Shown here piece after piece: positions 10,996 to 32,139 of a stretch of DNA of 36,435 nt. The translations under genes were made by a program, and so were the position numbers. The stretch is from a virus: the IMG/VR virus record IMGVR_UViG_3300050821_023985, positions 1 to 36,435 of that record, one strand, 5' to 3'. The notes under the pieces are model-generated. The model saw nothing but the letters and a program-made list of their open reading frames with translations. It ran no database searches and was not told where the DNA came from. Numbering within the stretch: position 1 is the stretch's first letter; each line of letters starts with the position of its first letter.

Positions 10996-11982
10996 TTAAG
11001 TCAGGCTAAGCCCTGAAATTTTTTGCTGGAATGGCTCACCGATCACCTTCAACACCGTAGTCTCAAAGATACGGGATTGAATAGCGTGATTGGTGTCTGG
11101 CACGTCGTAGATACTGAGCTGATCCAAGTCCTCCATCTCAATCCAGTTTTCGCCCGCAGGTGAAGTTACTGTCAAGAGGTGGGAGTAAGAACCGATATAG
11201 CGGCTAACGACAATATCGATCAAGTTACCCGTTACTGGGTTAACCACCTTCGATACATGTACACCACCAACACCAGCACCCTGATCATCAACAACTACAC
11301 GCTGGATTGAACCACTACCCTGTAAGTCATCCGCAAGCGCACGAACCTGGCGAGGGAAGGTTACAATATGGGTCGGGTAATCAGCGCCATAACCGAATAG
11401 GTTTTGCGCAAAGATACCAATACCAGAAGCTGACAGGTAAGTCGCCGAACCTGAGTTAGTGGTAATTGTCTTGGCTAGACCATCAAAGGCGGTAACGTCT
11501 GCAGCTGAGTCGCCATTCAAGATCATATCTTCCTCACCAAGCAAAACCTCAGTGATTTTAATATTCTCGAGTTTGGCACGCATGTCCTCAATCGAACCAC
11601 CACGGTTACTGGCGAGTGCCTGGCGACCCATTTCAACGTCACGCCCCAAGTTCTTGTAAGGAACGGAGACAAAAACGGTTGTTTGGGTGGTCTGCTTTGG
11701 CGCACCAGCATCAGCAAAGCCGACTGAAGTTCCAGTCGATCCTGCTTGTGGGTCGAGTTTAGACGTGATCTTGTTCCAGTTAGCGGCCTGACCAAAACCT
11801 TCTACACGTGGTAGAATGCGTCGGACTGGCGCAGTAATCGGGACTAGGATCTTTACTACAGGGTCAAGGTTCTCGGGCGCGAATATCGAACGAGATGGTG
11901 GAGCTTGCGTGTAAGTAGTATTAGTTACAGCAACCTTCTTAATCTCATCGAGATAAGTCGCTACAATTTCTTCGGGATTCAT
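10996..11982 (-). CDS. Major capsid protein, HK97 fold
   Basis: This is a 328-aa protein. The N-terminal arm holds ILVPITAPVRRILPRVEG, followed by an E-loop-like region (TTQTTVFVSVPYKNLGRDVE). A spine-helix region (SIEDMRAKLENIKITEVLLGEEDMILNG, residues roughly 125-155) and a P/A-domain core follow, with SYSHLLTVTSPAGENWIEME near the C-terminus. This is the layout of HK97-fold capsids without a large N-terminal delta domain; scaffolding probably comes from the protease-scaffold gene just upstream. It has a strong AGAAGGA site 5 bases before ATG, fitting high expression. Confidence 0.88.
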   Translation of the reverse strand: MNPEEIVATYLDEIKKVAVTNTTYTQAPPSRSIFAPENLDPVVKILVPITAPVRRILPRVEGFGQAANWNKITSKLDPQAGSTGTSVGFADAGAPKQTTQTTVFVSVPYKNLGRDVEMGRQALASNRGGSIEDMRAKLENIKITEVLLGEEDMILNGDSAADVTAFDGLAKTITTNSGSATYLSASGIGIFAQNLFGYGADYPTHIVTFPRQVRALADDLQGSGSIQRVVVDDQGAGVGGVHVSKVVNPVTGNLIDIVVSRYIGSYSHLLTVTSPAGENWIEMEDLDQLSIYDVPDTNHAIQSRIFETTVLKVIGEPFQQKISGLSLT

Positions 11983-15063: not shown

Positions 15064-15076
15064 GTAATACCTCTGG

Positions 15077-15125
15077 TTCTTTCTACTCTAATTTTAAGTA
15101 GAAAGCAGAGAAATTATTACTTACA
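15077..15125 (-). promoter_or_regulatory. Bipartite repeated element, copy B (before structural/protease/capsid genes)
   Basis: This copy is identical over 49 bases to 931-979. Minus-strand boxes TAAGTAATAATTT and TTAGAGTAGAAA are 19 bases apart, with the 9-bp hairpin CTTTCTACT/AGTAGAAAG. It lies 14 bases upstream of the 549-aa gene. The start of the element overlaps the stop of the small Cys4 ORF (AAG TAA TAA). It is probably the promoter or leader of the head block. Confidence 0.62.
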
Positions 15126-15197
15126 CTTACAATATATCTTTAGTTTGGATTCTTTTTTGATACGTTTGTGGCATTTTAGGCATAAGCGCTCGATCAT
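15117..15197 (-). CDS. Tiny Cys4 (zinc-binding-like) peptide, 26 aa
   Basis: A 26-codon ORF starts at ATG 15197, with AGAAG six bases upstream, and ends TAA TAA. It contains LCLKCHKR near the start and YCKCK at the end, so two cysteine pairs (CxxC and CxC) flank a Lys-rich core (Lys/Arg make up about 40 percent). It is small enough to be chance. The ribosome site, paired cysteines and same strand as its neighbours favour a real gene. No function is assigned; a zinc-knuckle nucleic-acid binder is possible. Confidence 0.42.
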   Translation of the reverse strand: MIERLCLKCHKRIKKESKLKIYCKCK

Positions 15198-15242
15198 ATT
15201 ATTCTTCTATATTAACTGCAAAATTTATGTTATCTTCATTCT

Positions 15243-15374
15243 ATGAGATACATAGAAGGCTTGTGGTTTAAAATAAAAACATGGTACAACCCCAGATGTG
15301 GATGCGGATCGAGAGAGCGAGAGACACCTGGGTGGACAATATGTTACAACTGCGGAAGGGCTCGTAAGTGGTAA
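15243..15374 (+). CDS. Small Cys4 zinc-ribbon-like protein on the plus strand, 43 aa
   Basis: This ORF has 43 codons, ATG 15243 to TAA 15374. Residues 18-43 contain RCGCGSRERETPGW and ICYNCGRARKW, a CxC/CxxC arrangement typical of short zinc ribbons. It is the only plausible gene in the window on the plus strand, and ends 5 bases short of the convergent 237-aa gene. No clear Shine-Dalgarno site is visible (upstream TTATCTTCATTCT), which lowers confidence. Trp-rich, basic content and ordered cysteines are unusual for a chance frame. Function unknown. Confidence 0.45.
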   Translation: MRYIEGLWFKIKTWYNPRCGCGSRERETPGWTICYNCGRARKW

Positions 15375-15379
15375 TCCAG

Positions 15380-16093
15380 CTAGTTGCCCATACCCATCAT
15401 CATTAATTGTGGAGAGGTAGTAGTTGCGCCTGCTGCTGCCCCTTTAAATGTAGCAGTGAATCCAGCGGTCCCGTTACCAGCTGCATTGTTGTCTGTTGCT
15501 GTTGCATTGGCCGTACCCGTAGCAGATACGGTCTGATAGGCAGTCGCAATAGCCGTATCAGTATTACCGCCAGCCAGACTGCTATTAGCAGCTTGATCAC
15601 TAGTCCAAGGCGAAGATATCGCCGTTACTGATGGCAACCCGCCAGCTCCGGATGAACAACACATAAATACCGCCCACCAGAATTCGACGGTTTGTGTAGT
15701 TGTAGCGGTTGTTCCAGTCGTTCCAGTAGATGTCGAGAAGGCGGTTTGATCGAGAGGAGAGGTTGCATTAGCACCACTCACTTCTGTTATAACAAGCGTC
15801 CATTGCCCTGCACCAGAGGCGCGCGATGCTGTAATACTTGTTGTTCCGCTAGCACAGTTTTTGACATACCAAGCGTCTAGTTGCCCAGTACCACCATTAT
15901 TGATGTCATTTGCCATATTAACGAAGGTTTGTGCTGTTCCAGCAGCAACTGAAACAGATATTACCTGCGTACTGTTTGAACAGACAGCTGCGATTAGTAG
16001 TAGGTTGCCACTACCAGTTGATGATATGGTTTTTGTAATCGAGCCAGCCGAAGTTGCTGTTGCTGAAACTGATTGGACTATTGAGAATGCCAT
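15380..16093 (-). CDS. Beta-sandwich surface protein, homologous to the Dit internal domain
   Basis: This is a 237-aa Thr/Ala/Ser-rich protein that appears to be a single beta-sandwich domain. It aligns over its length with residues 465-662 of the Dit-like protein: both start with a IVQSVSATATSAGSIT-like strand, have GNLLLIAAV or GNFIAITAV, share SPLDQTA followed by a TTTQ stretch, and end in ATFKGA or ATFKAG. It is translationally coupled to the 889-aa repeat protein (TAATG). The C-terminus ends QLMMMGMGN. A role as a head or tail surface, possibly sugar-binding, protein is inferred from the shared domain. Confidence 0.65.
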   Translation of the reverse strand: MAFSIVQSVSATATSAGSITKTISSTGSGNLLLIAAVCSNSTQVISVSVAAGTAQTFVNMANDINNGGTGQLDAWYVKNCASGTTSITASRASGAGQWTLVITEVSGANATSPLDQTAFSTSTGTTGTTATTTQTVEFWWAVFMCCSSGAGGLPSVTAISSPWTSDQAANSSLAGGNTDTAIATAYQTVSATGTANATATDNNAAGNGTAGFTATFKGAAAGATTTSPQLMMMGMGN

Positions 16094-18762
16094 TAGCTTG
16101 AATCATCTTGCCAATAAGCAATATTATAGGTAACAGCTTGCGCTGCTGATAGGTTTGCAGATATACCGGCACCAGGACTGGACTTAAATATATATGCGGG
16201 TGGGGTGACAGTCGCATTGGAGCCAAAGTTAGTAGCGGCTATGGCCTGCAATGGAGTCTGCCACAACAATGTGGCGTCCGTACCCCTAAAATCAGCGGTT
16301 ACAGCTGTAGAAGATGGCGTCACGACGGAGAACGCATAAACTTTCGTCACTCTGTTGGCTACACCCGATACTAGCAGCGTCATACCCGTGGTATTAGCGA
16401 TACCTACGGCTGTCTTTAGATTCCGATAGTTCCACCCGAAATCTGAGGTCGGTAAGGGATTGCTACCAGATATTGTTGTAGTCCCTACTGCTTGAGTCGA
16501 CAGGATGGTTGGGAAGTTGTCCACCACCGCATGCTGGCTACCGCTGACCGAGATAACACTTTGAGTAGTAGGGAAATTGTCTACAATTGCATGCTGTGTA
16601 CCCGAAATACTTACGGTAGTAACAGTGCCATTGATCGTACCAGAGGTAGCTATGGTGTTGCCCGGAACATTGCTAAATGTACCCGAGACCGTCCACGGGC
16701 TGGTGCCCTGCACCACTGTCTGTGTTGTTGGATAGTTATCAACGTGGGCATTGAACGTGCCACTGGCTGATGTAACATTGGGCATTGTACCAATATTGAC
16801 CAACTGCGATGGGTTAAACTGAACGGTTTGGACTGTCGGAAAGTTATCTATATGCGAAAAGTTTGTTCCTGAAGCGGTTGTACCAGGAGTTGTGCTAACA
16901 TTCCCGATCACCTGAACAGTCTGTACGGTTGGATAATTGTCGACATGTACGTTATTGACGCCAGAGGCTGCAACTACACCATTGATTGTGCCGCTAACCG
17001 CTATAGGCTGACCTGGGGTATTAGATATAGTTCCTGAAACTGTCCATGGCACGTTGCCTTGCGTAACTGTGGTTGTGTTCGGAAAATTATCTATTACCGA
17101 ATGAAAGCTGCCTGACACAGAGACAACCGATTGCGTAGTTGGATAATTCCCAATATTGATATTGCTGGTGCCTGAAGCAACTGTTATGGCACTGGGTGTT
17201 TCGTTGCTGATAGTAAAAGTCGTTGGAAAGTTATCTACGACAGCATGCAGGCTACCTGATACTGATGTAACAGTTGTCGTTGTAGGAAAATTATCTACCA
17301 CAGCATGTTGCGTGCCAGAAGTGCTGATAGTAGTGACATTACCGTTGATGGTGCCCGAAGTTGCTAGGGTATTGCCAGGACTATTAGCAATAGTGCCGCT
17401 AATGCTAGTTATTCCAGTAGCGATAGTAGTCTGGACTGAGGGAAAATTATCAACATTGACATTATTCACACCCGAAGCTGTCATCTGTACAGATACCGTC
17501 CCCACGGGCACAACTTTTATTTGCCCGAAATTATCCATTAGTGGCATTGACATCTGACCGTCAGTCAGGTTACCAGCTGGAGCCGCCAAATAGCGTCCTA
17601 ATATTGCTGTTCCAACACCCGGTTTGTTGGTCGACAGTTCAGGATAAGATACAAAGTTGGAAATTGTACCAGATATGCTGGTTATCCCAACGGCCTGCGT
17701 GGTTTGCACGGATGGGAAATTGTCTATTGCGGAGTGTACACTACCAGAGGTAGAGATCACTGTTTGGGTAGTTGGATAATTATCAATATGCGACCAGTTA
17801 GTGCCAGAAGTTGTCACACCTGGCGTGGTGCTAACGCTCCCTATAACCTGCACAGTCTGGACAGTAGGAAAGTTATCAACGTGAGCGTTGAGAGTGCCCG
17901 ACGCTGAAGTTACTGTGCCCGATACGGCAATTGTATTCCCTGGGACATTGCTAAATGTACCAGAGGTCGTCCATGGGGACGTACCCTGTGTCACCGTGGT
18001 TGTGTTAGGAAACGGAACGTTCACCCAGTTTTGGCTGCCTGACACGGTTGGGCTAACCGTAATACCAGGCATACTTTGTACCACAACAGTCTGAACGGTT
18101 GGATAATTATCGATATGAGCGTTTAGTGTCCCGCTAGCAGAGGTGACTGTACCTGAAGTAGACAATACAGTATTAGCAAATGACACTGGTACCTGGCCGC
18201 CCGCTGTTAACTGAACCTGAACAGTATTGCCGTTAACATCCTTATACGCCGCGATTCCTTCGGTAACTGAAGCAATCGCGCGGCGAATGGCATTGTAGAA
18301 CTCTTGGCCATCAGTAAGACGCACGTTCACATAATCAGTTGGATCGTTAGGATTTGTGGGTTTTTTGTTGAGCGTGACTAGATTTTGTAATGTTTTCGCC
18401 AAGATAGTGCGCAGCTCTTCCAAGCCCTCAACTCGCAAACGGTTTTTCTCTAGATTACCTAGGCGCAATGAGTTGTTATCAGTGGCGCTTACGAGACGAG
18501 TAATGGCATTATCCACTTTACTGAAGTCGATAGAAGCAATGATTTTTTCAGGTGGGCGGCTATCTAATATAGCCTCGCCCATTGTTTCGATAGATTTAGC
18601 TATCAGGGCAATGTCGTTACGCATGGACACCATGAAACTACGGTAATCCTCTTTGCTCATGGCCATAACAGTTAAATTACCGTCGGGTATTAGCTCCTGT
18701 AAGAGGGGTGCGATGGCTTTGCGCAATTTGGCTATATCTTCAAATGGTTTTTTAGTTTCCAT
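16093..18762 (-). CDS. Long repeat protein with DNFP repeats (fibre or head-surface protein candidate)
   Basis: This is an 889-aa protein. Residues 1-150 are helical (KPFEDIAKLRKAIAPLLQE) and may anchor it to the virion. From about 190 to 750 there are fourteen [DG]N[FY]P units such as HVDNFPTVQTV, spaced by SGT-rich beta strands. A higher-order unit (VTQG or VVQG, then PWT, then SGTFSNVPGNTIA or a variant) appears three times. A distinct C-terminal domain of about 125 residues starts at SDFGWNYRNLKTAVG and ends NIAYWQDDSS. Repeats of this kind build elongated beta-helical shafts. The gene sits between the MuF and 237-aa genes in the head block, so a head fibre is as likely as a tail fibre. 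TAGGAG precedes ATG. Confidence 0.65.
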   Translation of the reverse strand: METKKPFEDIAKLRKAIAPLLQELIPDGNLTVMAMSKEDYRSFMVSMRNDIALIAKSIETMGEAILDSRPPEKIIASIDFSKVDNAITRLVSATDNNSLRLGNLEKNRLRVEGLEELRTILAKTLQNLVTLNKKPTNPNDPTDYVNVRLTDGQEFYNAIRRAIASVTEGIAAYKDVNGNTVQVQLTAGGQVPVSFANTVLSTSGTVTSASGTLNAHIDNYPTVQTVVVQSMPGITVSPTVSGSQNWVNVPFPNTTTVTQGTSPWTTSGTFSNVPGNTIAVSGTVTSASGTLNAHVDNFPTVQTVQVIGSVSTTPGVTTSGTNWSHIDNYPTTQTVISTSGSVHSAIDNFPSVQTTQAVGITSISGTISNFVSYPELSTNKPGVGTAILGRYLAAPAGNLTDGQMSMPLMDNFGQIKVVPVGTVSVQMTASGVNNVNVDNFPSVQTTIATGITSISGTIANSPGNTLATSGTINGNVTTISTSGTQHAVVDNFPTTTTVTSVSGSLHAVVDNFPTTFTISNETPSAITVASGTSNINIGNYPTTQSVVSVSGSFHSVIDNFPNTTTVTQGNVPWTVSGTISNTPGQPIAVSGTINGVVAASGVNNVHVDNYPTVQTVQVIGNVSTTPGTTASGTNFSHIDNFPTVQTVQFNPSQLVNIGTMPNVTSASGTFNAHVDNYPTTQTVVQGTSPWTVSGTFSNVPGNTIATSGTINGTVTTVSISGTQHAIVDNFPTTQSVISVSGSQHAVVDNFPTILSTQAVGTTTISGSNPLPTSDFGWNYRNLKTAVGIANTTGMTLLVSGVANRVTKVYAFSVVTPSSTAVTADFRGTDATLLWQTPLQAIAATNFGSNATVTPPAYIFKSSPGAGISANLSAAQAVTYNIAYWQDDSS
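16490..18180 (-). repeat. Degenerate tandem repeat region encoding DNFP units
   Basis: The DNA codes for the fourteen DNFP-type units of the 889-aa protein. Plus-strand text such as GGAAAATTATC, GGAAAGTTATC and GGATAATTATC recurs at uneven spacing. Codons vary between units while the amino acids are kept, so the repeat is old and under protein-level selection and is not a recent slippage product. Confidence 0.7.
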
Positions 18763-21528: not shown

Positions 21529-23076
21529 TTACCCCCATAGACTGACCTCTCTAGATTCACCCGTTGCTGATGGCATGGGTAGGTTTTTAACTTGCTCTTT
21601 GTAAAAGCTCATGATGCCGCTGCCCTTATTGTGTTGATCGCAGGCATAGTTCATGAGCGCCAGACTGTCCGTATGGTCGTCGTGAGCATCTTTAATGTCT
21701 GGGTGATGCACGCTGAGATAATTCTGTTTATACTCCTTAACCAAAGCCAGCATTTCGTGGTCGCACTCCTTAGAGTGATTGGAGCCATCATGAAAATAAC
21801 GAAATTTATCATTAGCTATGCGCTGGTACAAACCTTTATAGATAACGTCCTTGCTCATAAGGCTAAATTTGACTCGATCAATGGAATGTCTAGAGTTGCG
21901 CTCAAATAGGTCTGGCATAAAATCGCCTTGACCTGTTGAATCTATGGCTCCTCGCATAATCTTGAAGTTTTGCAATACGTTTAAGATTATGTGGAACTGA
22001 TCCTCGTAGTTGATACCACGCATACCCATTGAATAAACGCACGTTAGTCTATCATCGATAAGCCTACCTATTTTGAGTATGGTTTGGTCAGCCTCCTTGG
22101 CAGTATCAAGGCCGAAGTAGTGATCGGATGCTTGATTGCCCGATTCGTATGGCTGATACAGCGCACAGGTCTCCCACTGTGGCCTGGTGACAAACATACC
22201 CACTTCTAGAAGCCAGCGCAGTTTGAACGGTCTATCAAAATCATCATGACCAACACCTAGCCGCTCACGCTCTGATGACACATATTGTTCATATATCAGA
22301 TGTCTAGGATCTTTGGTCTGTTCAAAGACAACACGTCTGTCTTTTACGACTAGGTCGCAATCAAGCACCAGAGCATTTTTGCTATTAACCTTATTATAGA
22401 AATAACACACCTGTGTGCCCGCTGTGCCAATAAATATTCTGGGAGCGTTTGTTGCTGCACCCATCGGAAAGATGCTCTGGGTTAGGATAGTTTCTCGTGG
22501 TCCCACCATATCCTGACACTCTTCTATGATGATAAGATCAAGTGTTTCGCCTTCTGGTGAGCTGGTAGGCGAAACAGGGTAAACAAGGCACCTAGCGCCA
22601 TTTTCTAATACCAACGTCTTGGCGTTTTCTTCTTCTTTGACTTTCCAGGTTTGCTCTTTTAAATCTTCCTGACTGATGCTGCCAATCACAAGATCTTTGC
22701 GGGTTTTTCTGAGGGCACCACGTAAGCGATCAAAGTCGATTTTGTATTGGCGTTGCAATGGAGCGAATATCCCAATACTGATTGGCCTATCAAAGATTAC
22801 AGGAAACCAGATCATAATAAATTCAACAGTCAACACAATAGCGCTGGTCTTACCAGCTTGTCGGCTAATCTCAATCGTTATTTCTTCTGGACGTAGCTGT
22901 TTTACCGTCTCTTCGGTAGCCTCCGATGTAATCGCCATGTTAAGGAGAACAGCCGCAAGTATACGATCAGATATGGTCTCTTGGTATTTATAAAAAATAA
23001 CATTGTGATTATTCGCCAGATGCGATTTTCTTAAGTGCCGCAATCTGTCCAGTAAGGGGCTCCCTGAGCTTTCCAT
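21529..23076 (-). CDS. Terminase large subunit
   Basis: This is a 515-aa protein. The ATPase part has SRQAGKTS (71-78, Walker A) and LIIIEECQD (181-189, Walker B with catalytic Glu). The C-terminal RNase H-like nuclease has the acidic triad in FGLDTAKE (Asp324), GAIDSTGQGD (Asp379) and DAHDDHTDSL (Asp466/467/470). The protein cuts and pumps DNA through the portal. It overlaps the small subunit gene by 68 bases. The ATG at 23076 is the first in frame, and AAAAGAAG directly abuts it, so the exact start is somewhat uncertain. Confidence 0.95.
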   Translation of the reverse strand: MESSGSPLLDRLRHLRKSHLANNHNVIFYKYQETISDRILAAVLLNMAITSEATEETVKQLRPEEITIEISRQAGKTSAIVLTVEFIMIWFPVIFDRPISIGIFAPLQRQYKIDFDRLRGALRKTRKDLVIGSISQEDLKEQTWKVKEEENAKTLVLENGARCLVYPVSPTSSPEGETLDLIIIEECQDMVGPRETILTQSIFPMGAATNAPRIFIGTAGTQVCYFYNKVNSKNALVLDCDLVVKDRRVVFEQTKDPRHLIYEQYVSSERERLGVGHDDFDRPFKLRWLLEVGMFVTRPQWETCALYQPYESGNQASDHYFGLDTAKEADQTILKIGRLIDDRLTCVYSMGMRGINYEDQFHIILNVLQNFKIMRGAIDSTGQGDFMPDLFERNSRHSIDRVKFSLMSKDVIYKGLYQRIANDKFRYFHDGSNHSKECDHEMLALVKEYKQNYLSVHHPDIKDAHDDHTDSLALMNYACDQHNKGSGIMSFYKEQVKNLPMPSATGESREVSLWG

Positions 23077-23425
23077 CTTCTTTTATCCCATATGCCACTA
23101 ATATTTTGTTAACGTGCGTGACTTCGACCTTTTCTTCACTCTCAATCTTGGTTGCAGGATTGACGCCGAGCATTCTCAATCTGCTTTCCCACATACGCCA
23201 GTCCTTAGCGCCCGCCTTTTCCATTTCACTGACGGCGCGGGTAATACCTTTGGCTAATGCCGCCTGGGCGGCAGGCGTTTTCTTCCATTTAGTAATGGTT
23301 TCTGGGTCAACACCCAATGCTTGAGCGACCATAAGCCATGTCTCCTGATTGCCGACTTCGATCAGTTTGATGAACTTGGCATACTCAGCTTCTTTATACG
23401 GTCTGTTCTTGATCAGTTTGGTCAT
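23009..23425 (-). CDS. Terminase small subunit
   Basis: The start is chosen at ATG 23425 (MTKLIKNRP). The longer frame from TTG 23503 overlaps the helix-turn-helix gene. The 138-aa product has a helix-turn-helix at about 20-50 (NQETWLMVAQALGVDPETITKW) and a long helical region, followed by KVEVTHVNKILVAYG, a C-terminal part that would contact the large subunit. It recognises the packaging site and loads the motor. No good ribosome site precedes 23425, so it may depend on coupling to the gene before it. Confidence 0.78.
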   Translation of the reverse strand: MTKLIKNRPYKEAEYAKFIKLIEVGNQETWLMVAQALGVDPETITKWKKTPAAQAALAKGITRAVSEMEKAGAKDWRMWESRLRMLGVNPATKIESEEKVEVTHVNKILVAYGIKEDGKLREPLTGQIAALKKIASGE

Positions 23426-23447
23426 AATCGTCGGGTTTTTCGGGCTT

Positions 23448-23732
23448 TTAAAAGGAGCTGGTGTTATTGATATTAGTCTCACGATAGTACTGTCTGGCTT
23501 CAAGCACCCGCTTAAGCTTGCTCTCCGCTAGTTTGATCGATATACGCCTAATTGAACGGGCGATTCCGGGCTGAGACATACGCAACACATCCGCAATAGC
23601 ATTTTGTGTCCAACCTGTGATGACTAGATCAACAATGACTTGCTCGTTGAGGCTCAGTCTATCGTAGGCGTCTTCGGCGACTTCATCGCCAACAATTCTT
23701 TCGAGTGGTGTTTTACCGCTTGCCTGTGGCAT
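23448..23732 (-). CDS. Helix-turn-helix protein, sigma region 4 / LuxR-like
   Basis: This is a 94-aa protein. Residues 25-65 read LSLNEQVIVDLVITGWTQNA then IADVLRMSQPGIARSIRRI, the pattern of sigma-70 region 4 and related tetrahelical DNA-binding domains. No sigma region 2 is present. It overlaps the zinc ribbon gene by 20 bases and precedes the terminase genes. It could be a transcription factor that turns on late genes, or a DNA-recognition protein that helps terminase. Both are inferences. It is the only clear transcription-regulator candidate in the window. Confidence 0.7.
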   Translation of the reverse strand: MPQASGKTPLERIVGDEVAEDAYDRLSLNEQVIVDLVITGWTQNAIADVLRMSQPGIARSIRRISIKLAESKLKRVLEARQYYRETNINNTSSF

Positions 23733-23919
23733 TGTCCGACCTCATAATTCCAATGACTTGATCCTTCTCTTTGAAAGTGACTGATTTATCCCTTATCTGC
23801 CTCGCCAATATGCCTTTGGAGCAATTAACGCATTTGAGAATCTTGGTATCTTTATCCTCTTTAAGATATTGCTCAAAATCCTTATTGCCACACGAACATG
23901 AATATCTATACACCGGCAT
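23713..23919 (-). CDS. FmdB-like small zinc ribbon protein
   Basis: This is a 68-aa protein starting MPVYRYSCSCGNKDFEQ with a second pair in ILKCVNCSKGILARQI. This is the CxC/CxxC form of the FmdB-type zinc ribbon found in bacteria and phages. Such proteins are thought to bind nucleic acid or act as regulators. It overlaps both neighbours in the operon (14 and 20 bases). The C-terminal half is basic and polar. Confidence 0.75.
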   Translation of the reverse strand: MPVYRYSCSCGNKDFEQYLKEDKDTKILKCVNCSKGILARQIRDKSVTFKEKDQVIGIMRSDNATGKR

Positions 23920-25231
23920 AGCTTAACCTCTGATTCTGGAGCTTTCTGTTAGCCCTCCTTTGTTCACGATTGAGTTTTGGCTCACGATCCTCTTGAGCGG
24001 CACTAGCAGCTTTCTCTATAACCTTTATCCATTGCTCAGTAATGGAAGCCCAACTATGTTGCTTAGCCCATGCGTAGGCGGCATTAACGTCAGGTCCGAC
24101 ACCGTTGATCAAACCTTCGATTAAATCAGCTGCTTTCTCGACATCGGCCAATGGACGTACACGCTCGTTGTCTGACTCCTTAGTTATCCACAGGCTTTTG
24201 CCACCACAGGGGATGAGTAGTCCACGATGTTCTGCAAGGATTTCCGCTACTGATGTATTATCTGGTGCAATGACGGGAGTACGTGTGGCCATTCCCTCAG
24301 TTATGGACAACCCCCAGCCTTCACCGAGCGTAGTCGAAAGTACGCAATTTGATACGTTGTAGATCATATTTATGATATCTACTGACAAGCCCTTATCTGG
24401 TGAGAAAGCGTTAGGGGCTGGGAACATAAAATCTGTGCCAAACTTAAGATCCCAGTTATCTGCCATAACTAGCAGATTACCACCGACATCGTTGTGAGCC
24501 ATATGCATATAGAGCATCACGTTGTCGTGGCCTCTATCTTTTAATTCACGTAGGATGGCAAAATTACGAGCTATGTCTTTGCGAGATTGATTGCGATTAA
24601 CATTGGTGATCAGGAATTTGCCATCAGCTTTGAAGTTAAAATATTGCTCTCTGAATGCTTTCTTCTGGGCGATGTTATCTATTGGGTAGAAGTCTGCAGT
24701 ATTTGTACCGTGGTAAATGACTTTTATTTTATCCTTCAGCTCTGGTTTAAACTTAAGGCATTCTTGTTTGGCATAATTGGTATAAGTCACAGGGAAATCT
24801 ATTTTGGCTACTACATCTTCTATCCAATCGTGCTTCGGCTCAGCATCAATAGGAAAGTAGTAGACCAATTTTGGCTTGGATGGATTGCCTGCTATCTGAT
24901 CGAGCAGCTGTTTCATGAATTGCTGGACAATGAATGTATCCTGCAAAGCAAATATTACGTCATAGGGCTTGGAGGCTATTCGATCAAGTAGCACCTGACG
25001 ACCAAACACATCGCCATATACCCCACCATTGCGGATACCGCTCAATGCTGGCCACACATTACCAGGAAAGCGATCTCTATCATACGGGCCACCATCATAG
25101 TTGATGCCCACCACATCGATTTCATATCTGCCAGTTGCTTCTAGGTTGCGCATAATCTCGCTCATGACCTTAGCGAAGCCAGTAGCACATGCATAATCAC
25201 CCCAAGCAAGAATACGAGTCTTAGCCTGCAT
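23906..25231 (-). CDS. GT4-family glycosyltransferase (GT-B fold)
   Basis: This is a 441-aa protein. The N-terminal Rossmann domain has a GT-B glycine loop (WGDYACATGFAKVMSEIMRN). The C-terminal domain has the retaining EX7E motif in LGEGWGLSITEGMATRTPVI and DNTSVAEIL, binding the nucleotide sugar. It likely transfers a hexose from a nucleotide-sugar donor. It ends in a basic tail (LNREQRRANRKLQNQR). It is part of a set with two GT2 enzymes and two methyltransferases, so it probably extends a sugar chain on a virion, cell-surface or DNA target; the acceptor cannot be seen. Confidence 0.88.
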   Translation of the reverse strand: MQAKTRILAWGDYACATGFAKVMSEIMRNLEATGRYEIDVVGINYDGGPYDRDRFPGNVWPALSGIRNGGVYGDVFGRQVLLDRIASKPYDVIFALQDTFIVQQFMKQLLDQIAGNPSKPKLVYYFPIDAEPKHDWIEDVVAKIDFPVTYTNYAKQECLKFKPELKDKIKVIYHGTNTADFYPIDNIAQKKAFREQYFNFKADGKFLITNVNRNQSRKDIARNFAILRELKDRGHDNVMLYMHMAHNDVGGNLLVMADNWDLKFGTDFMFPAPNAFSPDKGLSVDIINMIYNVSNCVLSTTLGEGWGLSITEGMATRTPVIAPDNTSVAEILAEHRGLLIPCGGKSLWITKESDNERVRPLADVEKAADLIEGLINGVGPDVNAAYAWAKQHSWASITEQWIKVIEKAASAAQEDREPKLNREQRRANRKLQNQRLSYAGV

Positions 25232-25955
25232 AGTTCGGTATCCAGTCTTTAGCAGTTAACTCAGGGTTATTGTACGGATGATCGTAGGCCTCTTTGCCAC
25301 CATGACCCTCGGGCATACCACCCCATTTCATCGCGTAATATTGCCTAGACTTTTCACTAGACGGGTTGCTCATCAATGCAGTAGATACACCTCCAAAATG
25401 CACACAGCTGCTAGCAGTAGTACAGATAGCCCGATACCCAAGCATCTCAATGCGACGATGACTATCGTTGTCCTCAAACCAAGCTGGCTTAAAGTTTTCA
25501 TCAAATCTACCTACCTTTTCCATAAAGTTTCTTTTGACCATGAAGCAAGAATAGTTAGGATGGTCTGCGACACTGGCAGGAGCCACATAGGGTTGTTGGT
25601 GCGCCAGAACATGATAAGGGTCAGAAAGTTCACCGATGATATTATTGCTGCTAACAAGTACCACATTATCTTTCTCCAATCTATCCATCTCTTTGACTAA
25701 GTTATCCACGCCGTCCTGATCAAACAAAATATCGTCGTTGATAATAAAAATATACTCACATCCACCGGCTACCGCTCTATCAAAGCCGTCATTCCAGGCT
25801 TGTGACAGTGGCTTATTAGCGCGCCATTGTTCCTCTAAATAGACTTCAAACTGATGCTCTGTTTTAATGCTAGCTATGGCCTCGACACAGCCTTTAAAAT
25901 TGTTGAGAACAGGGATAGTGAAACCTATTTTTGGTAGCTGTGGTTTGGAATTCAT
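25221..25955 (-). CDS. GT2-family glycosyltransferase
   Basis: This is a 244-aa protein with a GT-A fold. The beta-strand start is KIGFTIPVLN-like (PKIGFTIPVLNNFKGCVEAI), there is a LSQAWNDGFDRAV helix, and the metal-binding DxD-type motif is YIFIINDDILFD (about residues 88-99). SCFMVKRNFMEKVGRFDENF and WFEDNDSHRRIEMLGYRAIC follow, as in rhamnosyl- and related GT2 enzymes. It is coupled to the 54-aa gene by TAATG and overlaps the GT4 gene by 11 bases. Substrate unknown. Confidence 0.87.
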   Translation of the reverse strand: MNSKPQLPKIGFTIPVLNNFKGCVEAIASIKTEHQFEVYLEEQWRANKPLSQAWNDGFDRAVAGGCEYIFIINDDILFDQDGVDNLVKEMDRLEKDNVVLVSSNNIIGELSDPYHVLAHQQPYVAPASVADHPNYSCFMVKRNFMEKVGRFDENFKPAWFEDNDSHRRIEMLGYRAICTTASSCVHFGGVSTALMSNPSSEKSRQYYAMKWGGMPEGHGGKEAYDHPYNNPELTAKDWIPNYAG

Positions 25956-26119
25956 TATTTTTCCTCCTTTTTAAAGCCTGCTTGTTCTTTTGTCTCTATT
26001 TGTTGGTTAAAGAGATAGTTACTCAATGCAGAACAGAGCACCTTAACACTCTGTTCTGGTGCCATTTGTCCAATGGCTTCTATCCTAGCTATCGTCTTAA
26101 CAATCTCAGGAGAGTTCAT
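25955..26119 (-). CDS. Small protein of the modification operon, 54 aa
   Basis: The frame runs from ATG 26119 (MNSPEIVKTIARIEAIGQ) to TAA 25957-25955. It overlaps the methyltransferase end by 14 bases and the GT2 ATG by one base (TAATG). It is mostly helical with a Lys/Glu-rich end (KEQAGFKKEEK) that includes the GT2 ribosome site AAGGAGG. No family recognised. The exact fit between two overlapping genes makes it a real gene. Confidence 0.7.
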   Translation of the reverse strand: MNSPEIVKTIARIEAIGQMAPEQSVKVLCSALSNYLFNQQIETKEQAGFKKEEK

Positions 26120-26693
26120 ATGGTGGCTCCGCTGGTTTCACAGCTCTTAAAGTTAAAAATATATGCCCATTCTCAAATCGTTGATCGACTCGTTTAAACT
26201 TCGAAGTGTGACCATAATCATCGTGCTGTCCTACATAATCACCACTAAAATGATTAACTGTTGCCGGTGTCCAAACAAAGCAATGGGTGGGATCTGACCA
26301 GACTGCTTCATTGTTCCAGTTAGGCAAGTAGCTAGGCGTCTGCATGTAGAATTCGCCGTCATGCTTAAGCACGCGATAGATCTCGTTAAAGAGTTCGATC
26401 ATGCAGTTGCGTTTCATAAGTACTAACTTGGGAACATTACCAACCAGTGCAAGCTCTTTCACATAAAGGACTGACGGTATATGTTCCAAGAAATCATAGG
26501 CAGTCACAAGATCAAACATGTCTGACTCATATGGGATATCTTCTATAGCTAAATCAGCCGCCTTATTCTCTTTGAGCCATGGCCGCTCAGTGCCAACAAT
26601 ATCTACGCCATAGCCTTCATAGTCCTCGGTACCTTTGTAACCTTTGCGGATTCTGTCAGCACCACCAACGCCTAGATCGAGTTGTTTACGCAT
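26106..26693 (-). CDS. SAM-dependent methyltransferase, class I
   Basis: This is a 195-aa protein. It opens with motif I, LDLGVGGADRIRKG (residues 5-18), then YGVDIVG for motif II. MFDLVTAYDFLEHIP marks the post-II region of Methyltransf_11-like enzymes, and IYRVLKHDGEFYMQTP corresponds to motif III. It lacks a long C-terminal domain. In sugar clusters such enzymes often O-methylate glycans, and it sits between an FkbM enzyme and two glycosyltransferases. The acceptor is not known. Confidence 0.85.
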   Translation of the reverse strand: MRKQLDLGVGGADRIRKGYKGTEDYEGYGVDIVGTERPWLKENKAADLAIEDIPYESDMFDLVTAYDFLEHIPSVLYVKELALVGNVPKLVLMKRNCMIELFNEIYRVLKHDGEFYMQTPSYLPNWNNEAVWSDPTHCFVWTPATVNHFSGDYVGQHDDYGHTSKFKRVDQRFENGHIFLTLRAVKPAEPPYELS

Positions 26694-26907
26694 TTTTTAT
26701 ATCTATCTCTCCGTCATGCAGATCTATATACTTGCCGTCTTCCCAGACTTCACGGACTCTGCCATAACTATTGACTATCTTTACCCCTTTGACGATTTTG
26801 ATGATCCCATCGTCCTGATAGAATTTAGATATCTTGTCTAGTTCGAACCATGTTTCATGGTTAATATATGCTGGCGTCGAACTATAGTATGCTTTAGGCG
26901 AGTCCAT
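26686..26907 (-). CDS. Hypothetical protein, 73 aa, modification operon
   Basis: This protein is small, beta-rich and charged, with DKISKFYQDDGIIKIVKG and GRVREVWEDGKYIDLHDGEI. It overlaps FkbM by 14 bases and the methyltransferase by 8. No membrane segment, cysteine or known motif is visible. Strand-turn-strand repeats with aromatic residues may form a small beta barrel. Function unknown. Confidence 0.65.
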   Translation of the reverse strand: MDSPKAYYSSTPAYINHETWFELDKISKFYQDDGIIKIVKGVKIVNSYGRVREVWEDGKYIDLHDGEIDIKNA

Positions 26908-27568
26908 AGTAGGTCAACTCACTTTCCACTTTAATATCGCTTCTAATGAAGAAAACATCGTTGTGTGATTGCAGTGGCGTGTCCTGGGTGAAGCCTTGTT
27001 TAACGAGCCAATCAATTACTTCTTGGCCAGGGTGTTCGCCTTCGTAGACAGGCGTTTCACTAAGCTCAACCGAGATGTATTTGAAACCTCGGAGTAAAGA
27101 CCCACAGCCGTGCAATACTTCCCATTCATTGCCCTGAGTGTCTAAGACTAGACAATCGTAGTCACTAGTGTTGAAATCTGGGTGGTTGTATCGAAAAAAA
27201 TCGTCTAATCGAGTTAAGGTGACCGTTTCTGTGCCCACTACTACAGCGTTATCTGTCCAGTTCTTTTGCACTTCTGGGTGATTGATAATCGGTTCTAGGA
27301 GAGATGATCCTTGGCCATCACCTTTCGTAATGAGTAATTGTGCTCTACCGTGCCGGTCGCTTAATGCAGTGCCATAGCATGGAACATCTGGGTAGCTTTC
27401 TTCGAACTTTCTTCGGGCGCTAAGCAGAGGCTCAAAACATAGAATATTTTCAATACCTAATTCCTGGTAGCTAGGTATTTCTTCACCGTCACTAGCGCCA
27501 CCATGTATAAGACCCTTAAGCTTATAGCCCTGTTGGGTGAAATGCGTGACTTTGGCTGGTTGTATCAT
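26894..27568 (-). CDS. FkbM-family methyltransferase
   Basis: The start at ATG 27568 overlaps the GT2 stop as ATGA and has GGAAAG four bases upstream; ATG 27580 is also possible. The ~224-aa product shows GLIHGGASDGEEIPSYQELG (SAM site), ILCFEPLLSARRKFEE, TVTLTRLDDFF and YDCLVLDTQGNEWEVLHG with YISVELS, the order seen in FkbM enzymes. FkbM proteins O-methylate sugars or secondary metabolites. It likely caps or marks glycans made by the neighbouring glycosyltransferases. Confidence 0.87.
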   Translation of the reverse strand: MIQPAKVTHFTQQGYKLKGLIHGGASDGEEIPSYQELGIENILCFEPLLSARRKFEESYPDVPCYGTALSDRHGRAQLLITKGDGQGSSLLEPIINHPEVQKNWTDNAVVVGTETVTLTRLDDFFRYNHPDFNTSDYDCLVLDTQGNEWEVLHGCGSLLRGFKYISVELSETPVYEGEHPGQEVIDWLVKQGFTQDTPLQSHNDVFFIRSDIKVESELTYYGLA

Positions 27569-28470
27569 AGCGCTTTCCATGTATAGTTACCTTGCATGTC
27601 GACTTTTAAAGGTAGCAGATCGTTAGTCTCTGTACGCCATTGGCTCTCAGCTAACCAATAAATGGTATCGTCTATGCCAGTTGCGTTTACTGTGTGTCCG
27701 TGTGATTCAAGCCAGTTCTTGCCAAAATCGGCATATTTCTGAGAATGATTGGCGGTAGCACCGCTATAGTGATCGAACTTAATACCGATCATCTTCATAT
27801 GGTGGCCACGAGCCGCAACTTTTACGGACATAATCCGGTCATAAAAGTGATGAGGCGCTCGCCAATCAGCAAAAAGATCAGTATGATCGGCAAGATCTTG
27901 CAAAACTGTGCGGCGAAAGAATAGGCCAACTCCGTCAAAAACTGCGGCAGCCATTTCCCCTGTATGTAATTCACCGTGATGTAATGCAGCCGGACTATGA
28001 CATTCACATTTTCCCCATTCTTGCCCAAGCATGTGCGACATTGAACCTTCACGGCCACCATCATGATTAACACCCCTTGCCCCGAACAATCCGGCTAGCC
28101 CAAGTTGTGGATCGTCGTTAAAAGCTTTCACGATTCGTTCATTCCAACCCGGCTCGTGAATTAGCACATCGTTATGAATGTAGACCAATACTTTGCCTTT
28201 AGATTCCTCAAGCCCTTGCTTGAAGGTCGGCAGTACACCTATGTTGAGTTCATTGCGCACATACTTCAGATGCAAATGCGACCCGAGTGTGGCCTCTTTG
28301 GCTTTAGCTCTATAGTTTTCATCGGAGCCGTTATCTATCAGAACCAACTCTGTGGGCTGTGTTGTGTAGTGTACGAGCTTACTGAGGCAATTCGCTGTGA
28401 TATCCCAATTGTCTATGAAAGGGATGATTAGCGATATCTCAAAGTTTTTCGCTGGTGTCTGTGGTTTCAA
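27565..28470 (-). CDS. GT2-family glycosyltransferase, TTG start
   Basis: This is a 301-aa protein. ISLIIPFIDNWDITANCLSK starts the GT-A fold, TELVLIDNGSDENYR binds the nucleotide, and VLVYIHNDVLIHEPGW carries the DxD-like HND motif. FDGVGLFFRRTVLQDL and a region with DHYSGATANHSQ follow. The start is TTG 28470, inside the groEL end, with GGAGGG 8 bases upstream; no ATG lies nearby in frame. It overlaps groEL by 32 bases, so the chaperonin and sugar genes are translated from one message. Confidence 0.86.
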   Translation of the reverse strand: MKPQTPAKNFEISLIIPFIDNWDITANCLSKLVHYTTQPTELVLIDNGSDENYRAKAKEATLGSHLHLKYVRNELNIGVLPTFKQGLEESKGKVLVYIHNDVLIHEPGWNERIVKAFNDDPQLGLAGLFGARGVNHDGGREGSMSHMLGQEWGKCECHSPAALHHGELHTGEMAAAVFDGVGLFFRRTVLQDLADHTDLFADWRAPHHFYDRIMSVKVAARGHHMKMIGIKFDHYSGATANHSQKYADFGKNWLESHGHTVNATGIDDTIYWLAESQWRTETNDLLPLKVDMQGNYTWKAL

Positions 28471-29986
28471 TTACACATCCCTCCGAGGTTAAGAATGAAG
28501 CAGCTGTTTTTGCTGCATTCTGTATTGCATTGATAACAACATTCAGCGGGTCAATCACTCCACCCGTATAAGCATTAATAACTTCGCCAGAGTTGAAGTT
28601 GATAGTGAGATTACTATCAGTTATCAGCTTATTAAGATCACCCCTATCTAGCTCTACGCCTGAATTGCTAGCAATCAATCTTAGCGGTACTTCGCAGGCC
28701 TTTTGCAAAATGTAGTGCTTGGCTGCTGAAGCTGCTCGATAAAGAGCTGCGCCACCACCAGCTACTACGCCATTGGCTAAAGCTGCTCTCGTAGCGTTGA
28801 TAGCATCCTCGGCGCGCAATCGGATCTCCTCGCGCTCCGCATCAACTACTGAGCCGACTTTCACGACGCAGACGGCAGAATGCATCTTGGCAATTCGCTC
28901 TTTAAGAGCCTCGGCTGAGAAATCTTTGGCGTTCGATAACTGGCCTTGTAGCTCTTGTACTCGTGCTTCTTTGTCGCCATCACCGCCGATGATCAGGACG
29001 TCGCTTAAGGTAGCAACGACTTTATCTACATGTCCAAACTCGGTCTCAGTGAAATCCATAACCTTACGGCCGTCTTTGGGTGTTATGAAGGTTGCGCCGG
29101 CTACGGCACACACATCACGCAAGAAACCCTCAGCATGTTCGCCAAAGCCAACCACTTTTACAGGCATGACATTGAAGACTTGCTGATTGCGATTCAGTAC
29201 AGCCACAGATAAAGCGCTACCTGTAATATCATTAGCTATAATCACGCACTTCTTATGACCTTTTTGATTGGCGGCCTGCATGATACGGAGCATTTCCTCG
29301 CCTAAAGTCAGGCTTTGGTCGGTCACGAAAATCATGGTGTCATCATAAATTGCTTGTTGCAGGGTGGGGTTAGTGATGAAGTACTGCGAGATAAGGCCAC
29401 CTCTTAACTTTAGACCCTCAGATTTCTCTGACACCGTCTCGGATGACACATTATCCTCAATGGTCACTAGGCCATCTACACCAACCTGGTGAATAGCGTC
29501 AGCTATCACTGCGCCAAGTTTAGGATTTCCGCAGGATATGGTAGCAACGTTGGTAAGCGCCTCTATGCTATCTGCTTGTTGCTTTTGTGCTTGTAGGGCT
29601 AGTAAAACACTATCGAGATCAGTATCTATTTCTTCGCGAACAGCTACCGCATCCTTGCCACTTGCGAGCTGCTGCATTCCATATTCGACAATAGCAGCCG
29701 TTAATACTGCCGTGGTTGTAGTGCCATCACCCGCGAGATCGTTGGTCTTTTCGGCCGCGCTACGAACAATCTTAATACCATTACTGATAAAAGGATCAGA
29801 ATCTTTTAGCTCCCGCAGTATTTTTACGCCATCGTTAATGATGCGCACTTCTGATGAGTATGGGTTAGTGTCTAAATTTACATTGCGGCCACGTGGACCG
29901 ATTGTACCGCCAACCAGCTTAGCGGCTAGATCGATACCTCTTTTGACTTTTAGTCGTGAATCACTACCAGTCTCGATTATTCTCAT
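28439..29986 (-). CDS. groEL: Phage-encoded GroEL-like chaperonin (Cpn60)
   Basis: This is a 515-aa group I chaperonin. ATPase residues are kept: GTIGPRGRNV (27-36), Asp52 in IINDGVKI, LAGDGTTTTAVL with Asp87, Asp394 in RAEDAINATR and NGVVAGGGAAL (405-415). DPLNVVINAIQNAAKTAASFL (479-499) matches the C-terminal equatorial part. The apical domain keeps YFITNP (202-207). It is shorter than E. coli GroEL (548) and ends ETTDTSEKL without a GGM tail. The intact sites argue for an active folding machine. It is coupled to groES by ATGA. In known phages such proteins assist capsid folding; here that is inferred. Confidence 0.95.
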   Translation of the reverse strand: MRIIETGSDSRLKVKRGIDLAAKLVGGTIGPRGRNVNLDTNPYSSEVRIINDGVKILRELKDSDPFISNGIKIVRSAAEKTNDLAGDGTTTTAVLTAAIVEYGMQQLASGKDAVAVREEIDTDLDSVLLALQAQKQQADSIEALTNVATISCGNPKLGAVIADAIHQVGVDGLVTIEDNVSSETVSEKSEGLKLRGGLISQYFITNPTLQQAIYDDTMIFVTDQSLTLGEEMLRIMQAANQKGHKKCVIIANDITGSALSVAVLNRNQQVFNVMPVKVVGFGEHAEGFLRDVCAVAGATFITPKDGRKVMDFTETEFGHVDKVVATLSDVLIIGGDGDKEARVQELQGQLSNAKDFSAEALKERIAKMHSAVCVVKVGSVVDAEREEIRLRAEDAINATRAALANGVVAGGGAALYRAASAAKHYILQKACEVPLRLIASNSGVELDRGDLNKLITDSNLTINFNSGEVINAYTGGVIDPLNVVINAIQNAAKTAASFLTSEGCVIETTDTSEKL

Positions 29987-30228
29987 TTTACAACCTCGGC
30001 AAGGATCGCCTCTTCCTTAATAATCCAATAAGCCTGACCCTCGATAGTGACGGGTGCGTCTGCATAACAAACAACAATGTCACCAACTGAATAGCCGGTA
30101 ACATTGCTCCCCATGCTTACGATTTTGTACCTCATCTCTGAGACTGCACCCGCTGGAACCTGGAGACCTCCGAAGTCCTCGTTGTACTGGTCTAAAAAGA
30201 TATAATCACCCCTAGCTTGTAGTGTCAT
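29983..30228 (-). CDS. groES: Phage-encoded GroES-like co-chaperonin (Cpn10)
   Basis: This is an 81-aa protein, shorter than the usual 95-97. The start (LQARGDYIFLDQYNEDFGG) matches the first Cpn10 strand and mobile loop; the loop core is GGLQVPAG instead of the cellular GGIVL. RYKIVSMGSNVTGYSVGDIV replaces the roof-loop region with a short turn, and YWIIKEEAILAEV matches the last strand (VLIMSESDILAIV in E. coli). It lies directly before groEL with ATGA overlap. The ribosome site TAGGGGG is five bases before ATG. It probably caps the phage GroEL, and perhaps the host one. Confidence 0.88.
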   Translation of the reverse strand: MTLQARGDYIFLDQYNEDFGGLQVPAGAVSEMRYKIVSMGSNVTGYSVGDIVVCYADAPVTIEGQAYWIIKEEAILAEVVK

Positions 30229-30238
30229 ATATGCCCCC

Positions 30239-30263
30239 TATATACACATGTTATGTGTATATA
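30239..30263. promoter_or_regulatory. 25-bp perfect palindrome over the groES transcription start (operator candidate)
   Basis: Arms TATATACACAT and ATGTGTATATA flank a 3-base centre. The palindrome covers the predicted +1 and three bases of the -10 box. This is where a dimeric repressor would block transcription. It is not a CIRCE element (TTAGCACTC-N9-GAGTGCTAA), so HrcA control is unlikely. In RNA it could also fold as an 11-bp hairpin just before the ribosome site. Confidence 0.65.
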
Positions 30264-30289
30264 GTACAGAGGCCATGAGATTTTGTCAA
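30261..30289 (-). promoter_or_regulatory. Sigma-70-like promoter of the groES-groEL operon
   Basis: On the minus strand TTGACA (30289-30284) is followed by a 17-base spacer and TACTAT (30266-30261). The -35 box is a perfect match and the -10 has five of six bases (TATAAT). Predicted start about 30254, roughly 26 bases before the groES ATG. It would be read by the unmodified host polymerase and probably feeds the whole overlapping chain to the terminase genes. Confidence 0.8.
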
Positions 30290-30319
30290 CAAGGTTAATT
30301 AAAACGTTGATGCTTATTC

Positions 30320-31385: not shown

Positions 31386-31633
31386 GATTGCTCCTTCGGG
31401 CAAATATGCATTATAGAATTACAGCGAAGACAACAACCAGGACAGTGGCCTACCCAATAGGCGCTAGTATTATCTAACTTTTTGATAATGGATTTCTTCG
31501 CTTGCTGCTCGTAGAATTTCATACGCGCATCCGTAGTTTTAAAGTCCTGCCTATCTGTATGAAGTAAATGGTACTCTTCCCCACACTCAGCAGTTAGCTT
31601 TGTTAATATATCGTCCATCCAGTCGTATTTCAT
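31382..31633 (-). CDS. Hypothetical protein, 83 aa, DWMDDIL family with cysteine cluster
   Basis: This is the partner of the 95-aa protein at its N-terminus (DWMDDIL). It adds a cysteine-rich end (HCPGCCLRCNSIMHICP) that could bind zinc. It overlaps the HNH gene by 4 bases. The pair is found next to the homing-type endonuclease, but a link is not shown. Function unknown. Confidence 0.66.
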   Translation of the reverse strand: MKYDWMDDILTKLTAECGEEYHLLHTDRQDFKTTDARMKFYEQQAKKSIIKKLDNTSAYWVGHCPGCCLRCNSIMHICPKEQS

Positions 31634-32139
31634 TTCTTTCCCTCCTCTATTGTCCCGAGTAGTTCGGGGTTTTCGTATCTCTTAAACTCCCCAAATGCGA
31701 GCTCAGCTTCCCTCTCATAGACCCTATGAGCCTCTTGCTCGCTATCAAATATCCCTAAATATTTTCTATTACAATAGGCCTGCCATTTATTAATCTGTTT
31801 ATGGTAGGTAACCCCCTTGTATCGGCTAGTACCTTGTTTGTGCTTACCGCGATTCATACTATTCTGAGCGGCTGTTACTACACGTAGGTTCGCGCGCTGG
31901 TTGTTTGAGGGGTTACCATCAATATGATCGACCATACATTTGTTAGTTGTGTCTAAACCTAGTATTTGTCTGGCCATATGGATATGTCGAGATTCCATTT
32001 TGCCATTAATCTTGCCCAGGTAGTTATTGCGTACTGCATATCCATGGCCATCTAAGCGCCAAGTAAATAGAGATAGATCAGGATAATCACTATCATCTAC
32101 CCATATTTCCTGACCTTTAGATGTGAATATAGTAGTCAT
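31630..32139 (-). CDS. HNH endonuclease with AP2 DNA-binding domain
   Basis: This is a 169-aa protein. The HNH region is HIHMARQILGLDTTNKCMVD then HIDGNPSNNQRANLRVV (about residues 53-90), with catalytic-type His-Asn residues intact. The C-terminal part SRYKGVTYHKQINKWQAYCN and YLGIFDSEQEAHRVYE is an AP2 domain that reads DNA. Such stand-alone phage enzymes usually are homing endonucleases that spread by gene conversion. It sits among small overlapping genes without an intron or disturbed neighbours. Confidence 0.9.
   Translation of the reverse strand: MTTIFTSKGQEIWVDDSDYPDLSLFTWRLDGHGYAVRNNYLGKINGKMESRHIHMARQILGLDTTNKCMVDHIDGNPSNNQRANLRVVTAAQNSMNRGKHKQGTSRYKGVTYHKQINKWQAYCNRKYLGIFDSEQEAHRVYEREAELAFGEFKRYENPELLGTIEEGKK

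Follow-up and report, generated by a model that had tools for sequence, protein, structure and literature searches.

Introduction

Why would a tailed phage place its own GroES and GroEL genes directly ahead of enzymes that modify sugars and of the genes that package its DNA? The question is raised by IMG/VR record IMGVR_UViG_3300050821_023985, a viral DNA of 36,435 nucleotides analysed over its full length (the window), in which a groES–groEL pair (groESL) heads a run of glycosyltransferase (GT), methyltransferase, regulator-like and terminase genes. A preliminary description of the window proposed that the phage chaperonin folds either the phage's own glycosyltransferases or a modified virion protein. 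The analysis presented here makes it reasonably probable that the locus is an operon of late morphogenesis genes, headed by a GroES/GroEL pair that was acquired once and has diverged quickly, that it encloses a cassette for glycosylating the virion, and that the chaperonin serves virion proteins.

A conserved order in a clade of uncultured phages

Relatives of the window were found by profile scans with GroEL, the GT4-family glycosyltransferase, the terminase large subunit (TerL) and, above all, the capsid protein. Single-sequence scans yielded few loci (none for GroEL, one each for TerL and GT4), and a search of 50,697 phage records with the capsid protein returned nothing at E 1e-5. All nine clade phages whose sequence reaches the locus (G001, G002, G062, G065, G066, G073, G074, contig C8 of G098 and the window) carry groES and groEL, followed by the sugar cassette and then by GT4 and a helix-turn-helix (HTH) gene. 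This comparison with relatives had been set beforehand as a test that could refute the preliminary description, and the order was present in 9 of the 9 phages covering it. By the starts chosen, the groES/groEL and groEL/next-gene junctions overlap or lie at most 2 bases apart in each of the nine; G062 has an unmatched open reading frame (ORF) of 64 amino acids (aa) between groEL and the first GT2-family gene (GT2a). Seven phages are contiguous from groES to the HTH gene, G065 via two overlapping loci. In G066 and G074 an unbroken stretch covers groES, groEL and the start of the cassette, whose remaining genes lie at the opposite contig end; the order given for these two assumes a circularly permuted record. 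A zinc ribbon was detected in 9/9, with its position shown in all but G065 and G066.

Clade GroELs are 43–47% identical to that of the window, and the major capsid proteins (MCPs) of G001 and G002 are 60–61% identical to the window MCP. The groESL–cassette–packaging layout appears to have been kept in uncultured tailed phages of about 36–43 kb while their proteins diverged greatly, with a private GroES/GroEL fixed beside swappable glycan enzymes. Cpn60 occurs in 9 of the 41 capsid-scan records, most of the others being fragments. The ninth is G081, a distant 103-kb record, which was rejected as a clade member on the separate lineage of its GroEL in the GroEL tree.

Within the window, the gene order claimed earlier, from groES–groEL to TerL, is borne out by the ORF list, which puts all these genes on the minus strand, and by Pfam and PHROG matches, and junction measurement confirms an overlap everywhere except at the 22-base gap before the terminase small subunit (TerS) gene. 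Furthermore, in none of the nine phages is the space between groEL and the gene after it large enough to hold a terminator. Because of this, and because the order is conserved, the proposed single message from groES onward is likely.

Identity of the chaperonin pair

The window GroEL matches Pfam Cpn60_TCP1 across residues 22–503 (5e-35) and PHROG groEL (3e-95), and the clade GroEL profile matches solved GroELs at 3e-150. Residues G86-D87-G88-T89-T90-T91 (GDGTTT) and G410–G412 (GGG) are invariant; we take these to be the ATPase motif and the C-terminal ATP-site motif, respectively. The structural model (predicted local distance difference test, pLDDT, 85.9) displays a three-domain fold with an apical domain, a Foldseek match to GroEL at E 2.8e-48 and template modelling (TM) scores, normalised by query length, of 0.87–0.89 against several solved GroELs. 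Alignment with Escherichia coli GroEL revealed that the hydrophobic EML, SAL and YF residues of the apical groove are kept, at positions that presumably bind substrate and GroES in the E. coli protein. The C-terminus of all nine clade GroELs is an acidic stretch without a Gly-Met repeat, and the window protein is 31–39% identical to aligned viral and bacterial GroELs outside the clade. Sequence and model identify it as a group I chaperonin, for which ring assembly and ATP-driven folding are predicted.

For groES, Pfam gave sub-threshold matches only (ADH_N 'GroES-like', 0.027; Cpn10, 0.064). A model built from a three-sequence alignment (pLDDT 80.5) had GroES/Cpn10 structures as its Foldseek matches, the best being 4pj1_U (E 5.5e-5). 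VIA-align superposed it on Cpn10 with Z 9.9 over 73 residues (root-mean-square deviation 3.6) and on T4 gp31 with Z 7.6–7.8, other proteins scoring Z 6.9 and lower. By its predicted fold, the gene product is a real but very diverged Cpn10. The GroES mobile loop typically carries a hydrophobic IVL-type tripeptide. The window loop aligned with that of E. coli is without IVL, in an uncertain alignment where model residues 21–30 have pLDDT 51; at this uncertainly aligned loop, F or W is found in 8/9 where the window has L.

Origin and divergence of the clade GroEL

The GroEL tree comprised 57 rows: 41 of the 80 best scan loci, which already include two clade members, then the remaining seven GroELs of the clade, seven records of named phages or bacteria, and loci L147 and L148. 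The nine clade GroELs share one long-stemmed branch (support 100/100) that excludes the 48 other viral and bacterial GroELs. Correspondingly, a capsid tree of the window and 35 of the 41 scan loci (L119, L122, L136, L138, L141 and L145 were left out) placed the GroEL-bearing phages on one branch (98/95). Nine of the 18 rows of that branch are fragments in which groEL cannot be judged; G061, G067 and G069 end inside the cassette. The nearest phage found to lack Cpn60, G096, lies just outside the branch. These trees indicate one origin of the clade GroEL. In the simplest history, groESL would have been gained once, at the upstream edge of an older cassette.

Median pairwise identity inside the clade is 46% for GroEL, 19% for GroES, 60% for MCP and 52% for GT4. 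Mirror-tree correlations with GroEL are r 0.93 for MCP, 0.94 for portal, 0.95 for GT4, 0.90 for the FkbM-type methyltransferase, 0.69 for GT2a and 0.72 for the second GT2-like enzyme (GT2b). As MCP and portal track GroEL as well as GT4 does, co-divergence neither singles out the glycosyltransferases nor separates head proteins from GT4 as the partner.

Cassette content and chaperonin-free relatives

Two main cassette types were found. The window, G002, G062 and G074 have GT2a, FkbM, a class I methyltransferase (MT), GT2b and GT4, with an RmlB-like dehydratase added in G002. The type in G001, G065, G066 and G073 has a DegT aminotransferase, GT2a, a GNAT acetyltransferase, FkbM (not seen in the G073 cassette), GT2b, an RmlB-like protein and GT4; its GT2a is only 26–30% identical to that of the window. 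G098 has a single methyltransferase and GT4. Pfam confirmed DegT in G001, GNAT in G001, G065 and G073, and the epimerase/dehydratase family in G002; the RmlB-like labels and the remaining G001 and G066 copies were assigned by similarity to these Pfam-confirmed proteins. From pathway knowledge, the DegT, GNAT and RmlB-like enzymes together suggest an N-acetylated amino-deoxy sugar. The cassette is modular, its GT2a type, FkbM and MT being swapped while groESL stays.

Homologous GT2/GT4/methyltransferase cassettes without Cpn60 are present in G078, G079, G094 and G096, all of at least 36 kb and outside the clade, near terminase or portal genes. These four come from eight capsid-scan records of at least 30 kb without Cpn60; the cassette was sought in them and in G067, and G084, G087 and G089 were left out. 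Cpn60 was also found in 0/12 records obtained via GT4 or TerL, most of them fragments and Tetrasphaera phage TJE1 among them. Since chaperonin-free relatives keep a homologous cassette, the glycosyltransferases do not seem to need a phage chaperonin in general.

The region upstream of groES

The 91-nucleotide gap directly upstream of groES contains a promoter-like site, TTGACA-17-TACTAT, which falls within the end coordinate 30290 given in the preliminary description. A site matching at least 10/12 consensus positions is expected in a random 91-nucleotide gap with P of about 0.008. The whole-window promoter scan was not enriched (23 found, 25.0 expected), so the proposal of a promoter here rests on position. 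The site is joined by a perfect 27-bp palindrome (12-3-12). No other palindrome of the window combines arms of at least 10 with a loop of at most 4; arms of 12 occurred in none of 20 random sequences, and the core is unique at up to 3 mismatches. RNA folding from the palindrome into groES gave z −2.4. Because the expected transcription start falls inside the palindrome, we favour an operator over an RNA element. As an operator, it may keep the late block repressed early or in lysogeny. Two relatives, L162 and L164, have other inverted repeats 130–174 nucleotides upstream of groES.

Further upstream of groES, window positions 31630–32139 encode an HNH endonuclease that also matches AP2 below threshold, possibly a homing endonuclease.

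What the chaperonin may fold

The locus would open the late transcription unit of an uncultured phage resembling siphoviruses, with GroES and GroEL as its first two products. Its cassette would build a methylated sugar and attach it, most likely to a virion protein, and the position of such cassettes near packaging and head genes would be the older arrangement. The clade ancestor would have acquired groESL at the cassette's upstream edge, and from then on the pair would have passed down together with the head genes. A regulated promoter directly upstream of groES may ensure that the chaperonin is made first; it would then fold late products, most likely head proteins, and the phage may thereby be freed from host GroEL. 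T4 gp31 and gp23 are the precedent for chaperonin-assisted folding of a head protein.

Several observations weigh against this proposal. Every relative in the clade comes from metagenomes, and the records without a chaperonin may not be full genomes. Because the capsid tree was rooted at its midpoint, groESL may have been lost outside the clade instead of gained within it. The window palindrome is absent upstream of groES in 8/8 relatives, and promoter matches of at least 9/12 are found there in only 3/8. Within the same capsid family, G096 has an MCP 56% identical to that of the window and is without a phage GroEL. It would follow that such a chaperonin is no strict requirement for the capsid protein; since the latter manages without it in G096, co-occurrence alone names no client. 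GroEL also diverges more than MCP (46% versus 60%), which is odd for a general folding machine: cellular GroEL is expected to be the less divergent, the reverse of the clade pattern. This faster divergence of GroEL suggests a specialised client.

The position of groESL at the head of the cassette could mean that the pair is dedicated to folding the cassette enzymes. Immediate adjacency with tight junctions in 9/9, the presence of GT4 in 9/9 co-diverging with GroEL (r 0.95), and enzyme lengths of 195–441 aa, which would fit the GroEL cavity by its usual size limit, would agree with this. However, homologous cassettes free of Cpn60 occur in G078, G079, G094, G096 and TJE1, and groESL persists where the variable enzymes have been exchanged or lost, down to the one methyltransferase and GT4 of G098; the explanation is judged very doubtful. 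The earlier claim about clients is altered accordingly: the phage's own glycosyltransferases are weakened as clients by the chaperonin-free cassettes and the swapped enzymes, and a modified virion protein remains a candidate. A history in which the linkage has no functional meaning, groESL having landed once and stayed as the late block was inherited whole, would account for the single GroEL branch agreeing with the capsid tree and for cassette genes swapped between fixed ends. It seems the least probable of the explanations, since, at a GroEL identity of about 46%, the junctions are still tight and the catalytic motifs still intact. This persistence argues that the pair is under selection; what such a history denies is only the link to the sugar genes.

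Between the MuF and protease genes (window 13414–18762) lie g889, g237 and g549, which have no PHROG match and are candidate glycan acceptors. The chaperonin might serve a single virion protein that also accepts the glycan, such as a Ser/Thr-rich protein of this region, with folding coupled to glycosylation. The three proteins contain 21–30% Ser+Thr, versus 12–17% in MCP, portal, TerL, protease and tail tube, and other, unmatched proteins occupy the MuF–protease region in L105 and L168. The tail protein g928 also reaches 24% Ser+Thr, though, g889 (889 aa) exceeds the usual size for GroEL encapsulation, and the acceptor remains a candidate only, which leaves this possibility unlikely. Quite improbable, too, is a specialised machine, with its atypical GroES loop and a GroEL without a Gly-Met tail, in which enzymes of the same message glycosylate a virion protein that the chaperonin holds or folds, so that folding and sugar attachment are coupled in head assembly. 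A late operon whose chaperonin serves virion proteins remains the preferred reading.

Layout of the locus

Coordinates are collected in Table 1. Support from family searches is good for GroEL, GT2a, FkbM, GT2b, GT4, TerL and portal, and weak for GroES, the zinc ribbon, the HTH protein and TerS. Two small ORFs, p73 and p54, had no Pfam or PHROG family and no matching ORF in relatives at E 1e-3, and the HTH protein had no Pfam match. Downstream of TerL the gene run goes on with portal, protease, capsid and tail genes, linking glycosyltransferases and sugar-modifying enzymes to virion genes.

Table 1. Features of the window. Junctions give the distance in bases to the next gene downstream (negative, overlap).
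Feature	Position	Strand	Junction	Basis or remark
Promoter-like site TTGACA-17-TACTAT	30261..30289	-		10/12 consensus match only
Perfect 27-bp palindrome (12-3-12), putative operator	30238..30264	.		Over −10 and expected start site
groES-like co-chaperonin, 81 aa	29983..30228	-	−4 (ATGA)	PHROG groES 3e-6; predicted fold
groEL, group I chaperonin, 515 aa	28439..29986	-	−32	Pfam Cpn60, PHROG groEL, model
GT2 glycosyltransferase a (GT2a)	27565..28470	-	−16	TTG start; Pfam 1.3e-14
FkbM-type methyltransferase	26894..27580	-	−14	Pfam PF05050 1.1e-13
73-aa ORF (p73)	26686..26907	-	−8	ORF list
Class I methyltransferase (MT), Methyltransf_11	26106..26693	-	−14	Pfam 1.5e-7
54-aa ORF (p54)	25955..26119	-	−1	ORF list
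GT2-like glycosyltransferase b (GT2b)	25221..25955	-	−11	PHROG 1.1e-13
GT4 glycosyltransferase, phrog_2170	23906..25231	-	−14	PHROG 2e-42; in 9/9 clade phages
Zinc-ribbon protein	23713..23919	-	−20	Pfam 2e-5, below cut-off
HTH protein, sigma-factor-like	23448..23732	-	+22	PHROG regulator 2e-5
TerS	23009..23425	-	−68	ATG start at 23425 assumed; PHROG 6e-4 for longer ORF 23009-23503
TerL	21529..23076	-		PHROG 4e-10
Major capsid protein (MCP)	10996..11982	-		PHROG major head protein 3e-6; defines clade

Other viral GroEL records and a host lead

The GroEL scan returned the best 80 loci of at least 600 stretches. Glycosyltransferases were searched for in 49 of these 80 records, namely those of at least 10 kb and non-isolate as judged by record id; PF00535 matched in 12/49 and PF13692 in 13/49. 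The idea that viral chaperonins are linked to glycosyltransferases in general was rejected: among these best loci, a glycosyltransferase lies within 10 kb of groEL in 5/47 non-clade records (G007, G018, G023, G027 and G030) and within 3 kb in 0/47. The viral, non-clade loci L033, L045, L051 and L063 have a GT4 or GT2 gene 3–6 kb downstream of groEL, not adjoining it. Eight loci from seemingly isolate genomes (L014–L017, L019, L020, L028 and L032) have one record end just short of the groEL match, which runs from locus bases 13–28 onwards, as if prophages had been trimmed at, or beside, host groEL. L009 (CAKLQH020000021.1) and L006 (OR846590.1) are filed as phages, yet their GroELs group with bacterial ones; groEL of L009 is flanked by housekeeping genes.

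Among genome contigs the capsid protein had one match, a 43-kb contig of a Patescibacteria metagenome-assembled genome (MAG). This contig, C8 of G098 (L146, JARXKN010000005.1; L168), is the clade phage with its own groESL binned in that MAG, and its G+C content of 0.49–0.50 equals that of the MAG groEL locus (0.50). A capsid search of 379 genomes of the phylum gave a strong match to this MAG alone, with weak matches to G403 (1.3e-7) and G367 (9.8e-4); among 294 genomes of the MAG's order, a sample overlapping with the phylum set, the MAG and G367 alone matched. Infection of these ultra-small bacteria by the clade is a lead only, binning error being possible. Recent capture of groEL from the putative Patescibacteria host was rejected, the MAG GroEL (L148) grouping with bacterial GroELs and apart from the phage clade, in a weakly supported placement.

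Relation to known systems

Gp31 of phage T4 works with host GroEL. Its Cpn10-like phage fold (1g31, 2cgt) is shared by the 81-aa model of the window (Z 7.6–7.8), whereas the window phage supplies GroEL too and its GroES loop, as uncertainly aligned, is without IVL. Phage-encoded GroELs are already in print (PMC5332604, PMC8390657, PMC7185714), with chaperonins in 7/2,429 reference viral genomes (PMC5332604). Pseudomonas phage EL gp146 and other phage GroELs are likewise phage-encoded group I chaperonins (PMC7185714). Compared with the gp146 type, the window GroEL has an adjoining groES, a phage of about 36–43 kb, sugar genes alongside and a branch of its own.

Tetrasphaera phage TJE1 (HQ225832) has a sugar/GT block upstream of TerL and portal, with a GT4 38–41% identical and with nucleotidyltransferase, epimerase and methyltransferase genes; unlike the window, its record, deposited as complete, is without Cpn60. 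Mycobacteriophage glycosyltransferases are thought to act on a virion or capsid protein, as proposed for the window cassette, but the visible part of that report links them to no chaperonin (PMC11256854). A fixed groESL–glycan–packaging order was not found reported in literature titles and abstract openings, most subscription papers being outside reach. Within that coverage, a phage GroEL and a sugar cassette upstream of terminase were each known before, and their fixed order in one clade was not found reported. The clade, together with sister phages that have the cassette and no chaperonin, offers a natural comparison for the clients of phage chaperonins and for the reason that phages carry them.

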